From Holdemania massiliensis AP2 (GTDB lineage Bacteria; Bacillota_I; Bacilli_A; Erysipelotrichales; Erysipelotrichaceae): a stretch of DNA of 64,000 nucleotides. This document shows positions 9,144 through 12,833 of the stretch, piece by piece; position 1 is the first letter of the stretch; each line of letters begins with the position of its first letter. The notes under the pieces were generated by a model. That model did no database searches. It saw nothing but the letters and a program-made list of their open reading frames with translations, and had not been told where the DNA came from. The position numbers and the translations under genes are program-made. Location of the stretch: positions 822,290 to 886,289 of the forward strand of contig NZ_HE998567.1 of assembly GCF_000327285.1 (NCBI RefSeq), written 5' to 3'.

Positions 9144-9932
9144 ATGAAAGAATTTCAAATGTTTTTCTTTGACGTCGATGGAACGCTTTTGGATAATCGC
9201 AGCCATCGGATTTCCCCGGCAGTCATTGAAGCCCTGCACACGCTGCAGCAGCGTGGCAAAAAGATCGTGATCAGTTCAGGCCGGGATGTCCATACGATCA
9301 TGTCGATGCCGCAGCTGGCCGCGATCCAGTGGGATGGCTATATCTGCCGCAACGGCAGCGTTGTTGCCGACCAACATCAGAATGAGCTGTACCGCTATTT
9401 CTTCGATCTGGAAACGATGCACAGACTCGAAGAAGTATCCCAAAAACTCGGATCCCCCATTCAATACATGGGCCATACAGACTGGCTGAACCTACCACCC
9501 ACCGAGGATTTCAGGGCCGCCTGCGCTTTCTTTCACCGTGATCCCAACGCGATTGAGATACGTCCGACCTTGCCCGACGAGCAGGCCACCATGGCGCTGG
9601 CTTTTGACAAAGCGCAAAGCGATTATACCGAATATCGTCAAATTCCCGGGCTGACTGTGCTGCCGACACCGTTTCACTATGCCGATTTAGTCGCCAAAGG
9701 GATTGACAAAAGCACTGGCATTACATTGCTTTGTCAGCATCTGAACCTTAATCCGCGGGATACCATGGCTTTTGGCGATGGGATCAATGATTTGGAAATG
9801 CTGCAGGCTGCCGGCATTGGCGTGGCCATGGGACAGGGACGGGATGAAATTAAAGCTATCGCTGATTATGTCAGTGACAGCGTGGAAAAGGACGGCATTG
9901 TCAGCGCATTGAAAGCCTTTGGTCAGATTTAA
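9144..9932 (+). CDS. Cof-type HAD-IIB phosphatase
   Basis: 262 residues from the ATG at 9144; a longer frame beginning with GTG at 9135 starts inside the AGGTG ribosome binding site and is unlikely. Motif I is FDVDGTLLD (both catalytic aspartates), motif II lies in 'VISSGR' and motif IV is GDGINDLEML. The large alpha/beta cap between motifs places it in the Cof/YidA group, which dephosphorylates sugar phosphates, flavin precursors or similar small molecules in the cytoplasm. It is followed by its own terminator. Confidence 0.9.
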   Translation: MKEFQMFFFDVDGTLLDNRSHRISPAVIEALHTLQQRGKKIVISSGRDVHTIMSMPQLAAIQWDGYICRNGSVVADQHQNELYRYFFDLETMHRLEEVSQKLGSPIQYMGHTDWLNLPPTEDFRAACAFFHRDPNAIEIRPTLPDEQATMALAFDKAQSDYTEYRQIPGLTVLPTPFHYADLVAKGIDKSTGITLLCQHLNLNPRDTMAFGDGINDLEMLQAAGIGVAMGQGRDEIKAIADYVSDSVEKDGIVSALKAFGQI

Positions 9933-9960
9933 GCGGATCTCACTCCGCTTTTCATTTTTT
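9931..9960 (+). terminator. Terminator after the HAD gene
   Basis: AAGCGGA, six-base loop, TCCGCTT and a T-rich tail, beginning at the stop codon. It insulates the HAD gene from the operon that follows. Confidence 0.8.
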
Positions 9961-9966
9961 CAAAAT

Positions 9967-9998
9967 TTATTTGACTTAGTCAAATAAGTGATTATAAT
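9967..9998 (+). promoter_or_regulatory. Promoter with overlapping MarR-type operator
   Basis: TTGACT (9971-9976), 16-base spacer and TATAAT (9993-9998). The -35 box lies inside a perfect 21-base palindrome, TTATTTGACT-T-AGTCAAATAA (9967-9987). MarR dimers typically bind such 18-22 base dyads and block RNA polymerase, so autorepression of the downstream operon by its first gene product is likely. Confidence 0.85.
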
Positions 9999-10020
9999 GA
10001 AGCGTATCAGGAGGTGTCTT

Positions 10021-10443
10021 ATGCAAGTTTCTTTTTCTTATCTGATCTGCCAGCTGCGCAAGGATTACACGGCCTTTCTGCAGTCGCGGCTGGATGCGTT
10101 TGAATTAACCGTCGGTCTGTTCCCGTATCTGATTTATCTTGAGCATGCCGGTGCCTGTACCCCCTCCGCAATGGCAAAGCAGCTGCGCCAGGATAACGGC
10201 CACATCACCCGCTGTCTGGACAAGCTGGAAAAACTGGACTGTCTGAAGCGTTGCCGCAGCGAACAGGATGGCCGCGCATTTGTCGTATCGCTGACGGAAA
10301 AGGGCCGGCAGATCTGTCAGGAAATCACGGCGGCCAACCGGCAATGGGAGCAGCGGGCGCTCGAAAACCTTTCAGAGGATCAGAAAAATCAGCTGAATCA
10401 GCTTTTAACTCAGGTGGTTCAGGATCTGAGGCCAGCCCGATGA
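10021..10443 (+). CDS. bilQ: MarR-family regulator of the bilirubin-reductase-type operon (BilQ-like)
   Basis: 140 residues from the ATG at 10021, which has AGGAGGTG 5 bases upstream. The winged helix is visible from 'CTPSAMAKQLRQDNGHITRCLDKLEK' (in pieces) to the wing 'CRSEQDGRAFVVSLTEKGR', the most conserved MarR segment. It is first in an operon with the reductase and flavodoxin genes (four-base ATGA overlaps throughout) and sits directly behind a palindromic operator. By position and family it corresponds to bilQ, described next to bilR and bilS in gut Firmicutes. The inducer is presumably bilirubin or a related tetrapyrrole; that is inference. Confidence 0.8.
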   Translation: MQVSFSYLICQLRKDYTAFLQSRLDAFELTVGLFPYLIYLEHAGACTPSAMAKQLRQDNGHITRCLDKLEKLDCLKRCRSEQDGRAFVVSLTEKGRQICQEITAANRQWEQRALENLSEDQKNQLNQLLTQVVQDLRPAR

Positions 10444-11546
10444 AGCACGCCTGCTTAGACCCGATTGTTATCGGCGGCTGTGAGTTCAAAAACCGGATCT
10501 TTTTCGCACCGACAACGTTGGGCTTAAAAGCGGAGGAAAAAACGCTTAAGCTGAAAGCGATTGCGACGGGTCAGACGGCGCTGATCATCCTGCCGGACAT
10601 TCCCGTCCTAGGTGCCGGCAGCCTGCAGAATCATCGGACATTTGCGGCTTATCAGCAGCTCATCCAGCAGCTGCACGCGGAAGGCTGCAAGGTTTCTGCC
10701 CAGCTGCATCTGTCGGATACCAATTTTAAAGTGATGCTGAAATCGGTGCCGGCGTTATTCACCCATAAGCTCAGCGCGGATCAGCTGCGCCAGAAAGTCA
10801 ACGATTCTGCCGCTGTCACAGTCAACGAAATGTCGTTATCCCGAATCCAGGAAATCATTACTGCTTTTGGCCGCAGTGCCCAGCTGGCCCAAAAAGCCGG
10901 GTTCGACATGGTGCAGATTCATGGTGATCGGCTAGTCGGCAGCTTTAGTTCCTCGCTCATCAACCAGCGCAAGGATGACTACGGCGGCAGTTTAACGCAT
11001 CGAATGCGGTTTGCCCTGGAAGTCATCCGTGAAGTTCGGCAGCACTGCACGCTGCCCATCGATTATAAATTGGCCGTTCGCCAGACCGATCCGGATTACG
11101 GCAAAGCCGGCGTTTGGGAGCAGGATTTAGATCCTGTGGTCAGCTGGCTGGATCAGGCTGGCGTTGACTGCTTCCACGTTACCTTAGCCAATCATGGCGC
11201 TCTGACTGATACAATTCCGCCGGCCAATCATCCAGTTTTCTCTGGGGAAGGCTGTTTTCACAAATTTGCGGAGCAGGTCAAAGCTCTGACAGCCAAACCG
11301 GTAATTGGTGTCGGCAGTCTGCGCCATCCGGATATGATTGATCAGGCGATTGAAAGCGGACGCATCGACGCGGCTGCCATGAGCCGGCAGCTGATCGCGG
11401 ATTCTAACTGGGTTATTAAACTCATGGAAGATCATCCGGAGCAGATCCAATATTGTATCGGATGCAATCAGAAATGTCTGCAGGGTTTGATGAATCATCA
11501 GGGAATTCATTGTATCTATGAACAGAAAGGAAGTAAAATGGAATGA
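10440..11546 (+). CDS. bilR: Bilirubin reductase BilR (Old Yellow Enzyme family)
   Basis: 368 residues from the ATG at 10440, which overlaps the stop of the MarR gene. The TIM-barrel FMN fold is shown by 'IGGCEFKNRIFFAPTT', 'VSAQLHLSD', 'FDMVQIHGD' and 'SSLINQRKDDYGGS'. Ordinary members have an HGAHGYL-like loop; here it is HGDR (161-164), the active-site signature reported for bilirubin reductase. The C-terminus has CIGCNQKC plus a later cysteine, the four-cysteine iron-sulfur site of the 2,4-dienoyl-CoA reductase group, but the FAD/NADPH domain of that group is missing. Electrons probably come from the adjacent flavodoxin. Predicted role: stepwise reduction of bilirubin bridges to urobilinogen in the gut. 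The identification rests on motif plus neighbourhood. Confidence 0.82.
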   Translation: MKHACLDPIVIGGCEFKNRIFFAPTTLGLKAEEKTLKLKAIATGQTALIILPDIPVLGAGSLQNHRTFAAYQQLIQQLHAEGCKVSAQLHLSDTNFKVMLKSVPALFTHKLSADQLRQKVNDSAAVTVNEMSLSRIQEIITAFGRSAQLAQKAGFDMVQIHGDRLVGSFSSSLINQRKDDYGGSLTHRMRFALEVIREVRQHCTLPIDYKLAVRQTDPDYGKAGVWEQDLDPVVSWLDQAGVDCFHVTLANHGALTDTIPPANHPVFSGEGCFHKFAEQVKALTAKPVIGVGSLRHPDMIDQAIESGRIDAAAMSRQLIADSNWVIKLMEDHPEQIQYCIGCNQKCLQGLMNHQGIHCIYEQKGSKME

Positions 11547-12055
11547 AAATCTCGATTGTCTATCAAAGTTTGACCGGAAATACCCGTCAGCTGGCAGAAG
11601 CTGTCCAAGCCGTTCTGCCAAGTGAAATGCTTTTCTACATCGGAACCCCGGACACTGAAGCGCTAAAAGCAGATTTGATTTTTGCCGGATCCTGGACTGA
11701 CAAAGGGCTCTTTTCCCAACCGATGCTTGATTTTCTGGCACAATGCCACAACAAGTCTCTGGCCTTGTTTGCGACCTGCGGTTTTGGCCAGGCAGAAGAA
11801 TACTATCAAGCGATTCTGCAGCGAACAGCCGCTAAAATTCCTGCTGACAATTTGATTTTGGCCAGCTTTGCCTGCCAGGGACGTATGCATGAGTCCGTCA
11901 AACAGCGCTATCAAACGATGCAGGCCAAGGAGCCGGATAACCCACGCTGGACTTCCTTGCTGGAAAACTATGACAGCGCTTTATCCCACCCTGACAATAC
12001 CGATTTACAGCGCTGCCAACAGTTTGCCCGCGATGTTTTGACAAAAATAAAATAG
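11543..12055 (+). CDS. bilS: Flavodoxin-like electron carrier (BilS-like)
   Basis: 170 residues, overlapping the stop of bilR by four bases. The N-terminus KISIVYQSLTGNTRQLAE contains the flavodoxin phosphate-binding loop (S-x-T-G-N-T), and 'FAGSWTDKG' and 'LFATCGFG' match the loops that hold the isoalloxazine ring. It probably supplies electrons through FMN to the reductase, which lacks its own NAD(P)H domain. A flavodoxin next to the MarR and OYE genes is the reported bilQRS arrangement. A terminator follows. Confidence 0.82.
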   Translation: MKISIVYQSLTGNTRQLAEAVQAVLPSEMLFYIGTPDTEALKADLIFAGSWTDKGLFSQPMLDFLAQCHNKSLALFATCGFGQAEEYYQAILQRTAAKIPADNLILASFACQGRMHESVKQRYQTMQAKEPDNPRWTSLLENYDSALSHPDNTDLQRCQQFARDVLTKIK

Positions 12056-12093
12056 AGGAAAAATCTCTCACTGACACGATGTTTGAGAGAACC

Positions 12094-12132
12094 AAAAAAT
12101 CAGCAGAAAACAAATTTCCGCTGATTTTTTAT
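12094..12132. terminator. Bidirectional terminator
   Basis: AAAAAATCAGC, a 15-base loop and GCTGATTTTTT. The A/T-flanked stem can act on both strands, ending the bil operon from the left and the methyltransferase gene from the right. Confidence 0.8.
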
Positions 12133-12182
12133 TGATTTTATGAACGAAGATTATGCGCTTGCTTCGCACTTACACTATTTGC

Positions 12183-12833
12183 TTATTTTCTGCATAAACA
12201 ATGCAGCACAGTTCCATCTTCCGGTTTATATATTTCGCCTTTTTCACACAACAAGACAGTATATCCGGTATCTTCTGCAAATCGGATTAATTCATTTGAA
12301 TCGAAGGTTTCCCAATATATTTTTGCATCAGCATACGGATAAAATCGTCGGCCTTTCATATATTCTTTATAGTTATCCATTTCAAACCCGTAATCATGAC
12401 CTGAAAAGCTCAATAAACCATCTGTTGTTAAAACGCGTTTACACTCTGATAACAATTCATGTTTATATTCATTGCCATATAACAAGCCAAACGTTTGCGC
12501 CCAGATAATAACGGCATCAAACGAATTATTTTCAAAAGGCAGTTTATGCCCGTCATACCATTTAAACGTAATATCATAACCTTTTTCAGACGATAACGCT
12601 GTGACTCGAGTGATGACTTCATGAGAAATATCAATCCCTGTAACCACAAACCCCATATCAGACAAGACAAAAGCCTCTCTTCCCAAGCCGCATCCCACGT
12701 CCAAGATTTTTGATTTTTCGGGGAAAAGCTTTGCAACTGTTAGCTCCCATTTTTTCAAATGCGAACTTTCCAAGTGCTCCATTTCATTAACATTTTCCTT
12801 TGTTTCATACCATTCGGTAACAATACTGCGCAT
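12183..12833 (-). CDS. Class I SAM-dependent methyltransferase
   Basis: 216 residues with motif I ILDVGCGLGREA (near residue 43), the acidic end of strand 2 in 'VTGIDIS' and motif IV-like 'FDAVIIWAQTFGLL'. This is a Methyltransf_11/25-type small-molecule or natural-product methylase; the substrate cannot be assigned. TAGGAGG lies upstream of the ATG. The gene is noticeably more A/T-rich than its neighbours and stands alone between terminator and intergenic DNA, hinting at separate acquisition. Residue 1 begins MRSIVTEWYETKENVNEMEH. Confidence 0.85.
   Translation of the reverse strand: MRSIVTEWYETKENVNEMEHLESSHLKKWELTVAKLFPEKSKILDVGCGLGREAFVLSDMGFVVTGIDISHEVITRVTALSSEKGYDITFKWYDGHKLPFENNSFDAVIIWAQTFGLLYGNEYKHELLSECKRVLTTDGLLSFSGHDYGFEMDNYKEYMKGRRFYPYADAKIYWETFDSNELIRFAEDTGYTVLLCEKGEIYKPEDGTVLHCLCRK

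Follow-up and report, generated by a model that had tools for sequence, protein, structure and literature searches.

How is the bil operon, which encodes a bilirubin reductase, switched on and off, and does the inverted repeat in front of it serve as the operator of its own regulator? The operon consists of three genes in the order bilQ–bilR–bilS, on the plus strand at positions 10021–12055 of the window, i.e., the whole 64-kb stretch of DNA analyzed here. The first gene, bilQ (10021..10443), encodes a 140-aa MarR-family regulator that scored 175.1 bits against the NCBIfam model NF045593, passing the cut-off of 125. It overlaps by the sequence ATGA with bilR (10440..11546), which encodes the short form of the reductase, 368 aa in length with an HGDR motif (501.3 bits against NF045592, cut-off 425), followed by bilS (11543..12055), which encodes a 170-aa flavodoxin-like protein (211.3 bits against NF045594, cut-off 155). 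Gene set and order are the same as in the bilQRS operon of Hall et al. 2024 (PMC10769871), who tied the HGDR motif to bilirubin reductase; in the parts of that article available to us, bilQ is named only as a MarR-family regulator, with no operator, regulon or ligand given.

BilQ contains the winged-helix domain of MarR proteins (PF01047, 37.1 bits, cut-off 24.6). E. coli MarR and S. aureus MepR are autorepressors of their own operons, with operators and ligands that differ from BilQ's. These two proteins were the best Foldseek matches (3vod and 5fb2, E 9.3e-9) of the BilQ AlphaFold2 model, which had a pLDDT of 93.3. One cysteine, C46, is invariant in 26/26 aligned BilQs. A role for BilQ as a cysteine-based redox sensor was nevertheless rejected: in the BilQs of G853 and G901 this residue is replaced by Ala, so a redox-active cysteine is not essential to BilQ.

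The gene upstream of the operon encodes a HAD-type hydrolase (PF08282) and is separated from it by an 88-bp gap. A terminator-like hairpin followed by a T-rich tail (9931..9950, plus strand) belongs to the hydrolase gene, so transcription of the bil operon probably starts from a separate promoter within the gap; such terminator-like sites were no commoner in the scan than in shuffled sequence. The best promoter-like match within 9800–12250, agreeing with the consensus at 11/12 positions, was the pair TTGACT (−35, 9971..9976) and TATAAT (−10, 9993..9998), separated by a 16-bp spacer on the plus strand, and AGGAGG (10009..10014, plus strand) is the likely ribosome-binding site of bilQ.

The dyad, TTATTTGACT-T-AGTCAAATAA, occupies exactly 9967..9987 and was assigned to neither strand. 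The original prediction, which described it as exactly palindromic around one center base and as containing the −35 element, was right on both counts. Of the span it had given, 9967–9998, the start is correct, and the end is that of the −10 box, the dyad itself stopping at 9987. The exact 21-bp sequence, TTATTTGACTTAGTCAAATAA, is unique: at ≤3 mismatches it had no other match in the window, where shuffles gave an expectation of 0.01, and none elsewhere in the 3.81-Mb genome. We considered the full 21-bp symmetry as the functional unit and rejected it, as the outer pairs are broken in the two sister species (TTATTTGACTTAGTCAAATTA, ...ATTT). Conservation is confined to a 13-bp core, TTGAC-N3-GTCAA, plus one or two flanking bases, spelled TTGAC-TTA-GTCAA at 9971–9983. 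The bare core is not rare on its own, with 6 places in the genome vs. 9 for a reversed control pattern; the other 5 of the 6 all lie inside open reading frames.

A search upstream of other bilQ homologues, which the original prediction had proposed, showed that the core recurs, and the prediction passed the refutation test it had set on conservation near homologues. We collected 48 bilR-type loci, counting the duplicates L090 and L092 once with L017 and L025, and determined for each whether bilQ is adjacent and whether the core is present at ≤1 mismatch. Wherever bilQ lies directly before bilR, the core was found upstream (23/23 loci, including L101, where bilR is truncated and the site was read separately from the other 22). 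Among short-form bilR genes (≥40% identity) with no adjacent bilQ, half of the loci carried the site (5/10; L007–L010 and L091) and half lacked it (L028, L094, L095, L098 and L099). In a further locus, L032, the site precedes bilR, and bilQ sits farther along in that cluster. No core at ≤1 mismatch was found at the long or divergent HGDR forms (0/10 loci; L100 has a site with 2 mismatches), and four more distant OYE relatives lacking HGDR (L033–L036), whose genomes lay outside the BilQ search, had no site either.

The genomes behind bilR loci lacking an adjacent bilQ were then sorted with a BilQ profile. It gave 191–198 bits in G024, G110, G144 and G853, all of which have the site at bilR, and 158 bits in G826, whose bilR site is degraded (2 mismatches) and whose bilQ has a 1-mismatch site. 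In G561, the genome of L032, the profile gave 118 bits, and the NCBIfam score of 123.4 fell just under the cut-off of 125, by 1.6 bits; this genome was entered as having BilQ, with a site at bilR. The best hit was ≤80.4 bits, which we took to mean a genome without BilQ, in those of the five site-less short-form bilR genes and of nine long or divergent loci (L011–L016, L070, L071 and L102), which likewise have no site. Since the five short-form genes without a site sit in genomes lacking BilQ, bilR is under other regulation in some genomes. Overall, the site was present at bilR in 28/29 loci with BilQ in the genome vs. 1/15 without (Fisher p 1.9e-9, which is only a guide, as the loci are related). 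Restricted to the short, non-adjacent bilR loci, the counts were 4/4 vs. 1/6 (p 0.048). The exception, G130, has a double site before bilR and no BilQ was found in its genome, which is 80% complete.

In G024, G110, G144 and G853, bilR lies apart from bilQ and the site is found at both genes, which makes it hard to invoke inheritance of a single promoter. All four bilQ genes have exact or near-exact double sites, and the bilR genes have one exact copy (G110) or two copies at ≤1 mismatch (G024, G144 and G853). The BilQ calls at the split and newly found loci that pass NF045593 are those of L086, L087, L089, L107, L115, L121, L156, L158 and L159. That the motif might be common to MarR genes in general was also considered and rejected: besides bilQ, 19 MarR-type genes of this genome were examined, and none had the core upstream at ≤1 mismatch; this control covered 20 of 27 MarR matches including bilQ, left out seven weak ones (L060, L061, L063–L066 and L068), and used gene starts approximated by the open frame. 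Covariation of the arms outside the core was weak: at ±7, 35/47 pairs were complementary vs. 28.0 expected, and there was no excess at ±8 or ±10.

Most bilQ promoters carry not one but two copies of the core. We assembled 28 promoters, comprising the 23 adjacent to bilR and those of G024, G144 and G110 (bilQ first found via the motif scan), G853 (found by BilQ profile and motif) and G040 (found via the CpcT-like gene described below); not in the set are bilQ from G826, bilQ from G561 and the genes that turned up afterwards in the Agathobaculum-order scan. An exact core was present in 26/28 and a core at ≤1 mismatch in 28/28, compared to means of 0.004 and 0.14 promoters (maximum 2 for the latter) in 500 dinucleotide shuffles. 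Nineteen of the 28 have two copies, in every case spaced by exactly 28 bp (19/19). In these double promoters the −35 hexamer is part of the first copy. Following it at 17 bp is TATACT or a near-identical hexamer, which reaches into the second copy (TATACTTGAC); the second copy thus overlaps the −10 box. A single copy with a 16-bp spacer is found in the window, its two sister species, L096, L097 and L101, and G044, L027 and L093 also have a single copy. Neither the window nor its two sister species has the −10-overlapping copy at the 28-bp distance, and with one copy here vs. two in most bilQ promoters, the promoter in the window is a reduced version of a common two-operator design. Window positions 9999–10009 and the sister species L003 and L004 show a possible relic of a lost second operator; in the sisters, TGA-N4-GTCA is retained behind the −10 box and extends into the ribosome-binding site.

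Scans for the double site at ≤2 mismatches, requiring no gene, led back to the same genes. There were 11 double-site places in 10 genomes among 394 genomes of the order of Agathobaculum, and 11 in 10 genomes among 272 of the window's family; the reversed control pattern was matched in 2/394 and 4/272 genomes, respectively, as read from the tables. In both scans together, all 15 places at ≤1 mismatch were at bilQ, at bilR or at a BilQ-linked membrane-protein gene (alone, in G913). Of those with exactly 2 mismatches, 3/7 were bil-linked (bilQ in G639 and G040, bilS–bilR in G956) and 4/7 were not (G858, G997, G082 and G126).

Taken as a whole, conservation before bilQ and bilR, co-occurrence with BilQ, presence at split loci and the landing of motif-only scans on bil genes strongly support this part of the original prediction: the dyad is very probably the operator of BilQ, the MarR-type product of the operon's first gene. 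In the mechanism that we propose, a BilQ dimer would sit on TTGAC-N3-GTCAA and, as the site contains the −35 box, would keep RNA polymerase off the promoter, so that BilQ would repress bilQRS, itself included. In most relatives, the second site 28 bp downstream would place both promoter hexamers under BilQ, the window's genus keeping only the first. The tight repression expected from promoter overlap is plausible on this layout, with one operator in the window's genus and two in most relatives. Computation establishes the site and how well it is conserved, the link to BilQ and the regulon; BilQ binding, repression as the direction of control, its steric mechanism and the ligand are points that we infer, steric repression from the overlap with the −35 box, the autogenous position and the MarR fold.

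The genes that share the site with bilR bear on the question of the ligand. A membrane protein of 107–109 aa follows or accompanies bilQ in G024, G144, G853, G826 and G901, and in G913 (L160) its gene has its own double operator (L086:2533-2859, L087:745-1071, L115:2057-2377, L121:1028-1354, L158:2038-2361 and L160:1124-1447). It had no Pfam match at the gathering level, one member weakly matching DUF2838, and no such protein is encoded within the 64-kb window. The second candidate is a 183-aa protein encoded behind bilQ, in BilQ-operator operons, in G110, G144, G040 and G639 (Agathobaculum order; L089:1961-2509, L087:183-731, L107:1501-2049 and L156:1994-2542). PF06206 (CpcT/CpeT) matched 8/9 of its members with a best E of 0.0018, member 1 reaching 15.0 bits, below the gathering cut-off of 21. 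Its predicted structure (pLDDT 91.7) has the CpcT fold: it superimposed on 4o4s, CpcT with phycocyanobilin, with Z 17.5 and rmsd 2.9 over 170/183 residues. CpcT, CpeT and CRL made up the first four structural rows, the next having a Z of 11.0, and the top Foldseek match was CpeT (E 1.3e-3). The link between this protein and the site is partial, because 7/10 genomes with the protein had no core site in the stretch fetched around the gene. It was not found in the window's genome (E ≤ 1e-8), and the query had no relative in viral contigs. G040 and G639 carry BilQ, the 183-aa protein and the site with no bilR match, which argues that bilirubin reduction is not the sole output of the system.

A small molecule would release BilQ. 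Bile pigments, the substrates of BilR, are its likeliest class, with bilirubin, biliverdin and reduced bilins as the candidates. This choice is favored because bilR, bilS and the CpcT-fold protein share the site, and the presence of the latter in a BilQ-operator operon of four genomes makes a bilin more likely, if circumstantially. We give a bilin ligand, whether bilirubin or another, roughly an even chance. Only tentatively, and a shade short of probable, do we extend this to a reading of BilQ as a sensor devoted to bile pigments in gut bacteria. It would act through two operators, spaced by 28 bp and covering the −35 and −10 boxes, so that the same bases would govern both promoter strength and occupancy by the repressor. 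Its bilin regulon would go beyond bilRS to include the membrane protein and a bilin carrier or trap; the CpcT-fold protein, whose predicted structure relates it to the phycobilin lyases of cyanobacteria, would then carry or trap bilins in non-photosynthetic bacteria.

The alternative that survives best accepts the dyad as the BilQ operator and makes the ligand generic (bile acids, phenolics, heme or porphyrin, or redox stress), with bilQRS switched on in a detoxification response. Aromatic acids and oxidants are often bound by MarR proteins. The invariance of C46 in the alignment fits this alternative, as do the BilQs of G040 and G639 with no detected bilR, and the MarR-family proteins PefR (PMC8044140) and HsmR (PMC12839281) sense heme, according to the parts of those sources available. 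Against it stand the Ala at position 46 in two BilQs and the bilin-related character of the genes sharing the site, and we regard it as a serious possibility that is somewhat doubtful. That a different, unlinked regulator binds the dyad and happens to control the bil genes is very unlikely: the contact between BilQ and the operator is deduced from sequence comparison, and G130 has the site with no BilQ detected, but site and BilQ co-occur almost completely, also where bilQ lies away from bilR, and the site is absent from 14/15 bilR loci of genomes without BilQ. Finally, we dismiss as extremely improbable a chance origin of the dyad, in which a TTGAC −35 box happened to be followed by its complement and was kept only with the promoter, for while the left arm also serves as the −35 box and the bare core is about as frequent in the genome as its reversed control, the right arm GTCAA is kept with no known promoter role (an observation favored by selecting sites at ≤1 mismatch), second copies lie exactly 28 bp downstream and the same 14/15 loci lack the site at the bilR promoter.

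With the dyad as the BilQ operator, the nearest precedents for a tetrapyrrole ligand are, by analogy, PefR and HsmR. PefR of Streptococcus agalactiae (PMC8044140, PMC2858704), as described in the available parts of these sources, is like BilQ a MarR-family protein that represses its own operon; it has two operator copies before pefRCD, and its ligand, heme or porphyrin, is a tetrapyrrole, as a bilin ligand of BilQ would be. Its operator, within TAAAATAGTTCTCACGATAACTA, is unrelated to TTGAC-N3-GTCAA, and it controls efflux pumps, unlike the regulon proposed for BilQ. No chain named PefR was among the 35 PDB sequences nearest BilQ at E ≤ 1e-10. In Clostridioides difficile, the MarR-type repressor HsmR is paired with the membrane protein HsmA and is released by heme (PMC12839281, in part). 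Several genomes pair BilQ with a small membrane protein too, and the likeness is one of gene pairing; as a structural match to the BilQ model, HsmR ranked 47th, with 14% identity.

Searching open-licence PMC for operator spellings including TTGACTAAGTCAA and TTGACTTAGTCAA returned only an unrelated plant-virus match, and the articles on MarR proteins and TTGAC palindromes, as far as their text was available, showed no BilQ-type operator. The text of the BilV preprint contains none of the words "MarR", "regulator", "promoter" or "transcription", and no description of a bilQ operator or of the switching-on of bil genes was found in the open-licence PMC literature. Thus, BilQ as a MarR regulator was already known, and the description of its operator was not found in that literature, to the extent its text was available. 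Through bilirubin reduction, gut bacteria influence the balance between excretion and reabsorption of bile pigment. With the operator and regulon defined, there are two more candidate bilin genes and, should the ligand be confirmed, parts for a bilirubin biosensor.

Two minor observations concern individual operators and proteins. In G826, diverged operators are found at both bilR (TTGATTAAGTCAG, L100:251-263) and bilQ (TTGACTTAGTCAG, L121:1993-2005), and their occurrence at both loci is a hint that the specificity of BilQ may have shifted there. All 26/26 aligned BilQs share W109 and, around the recognition helix, D58, G60 and R64 (encoded within window positions 10021–10440), and the complete quartet is present in 0/16 other aligned MarR proteins of this genome.
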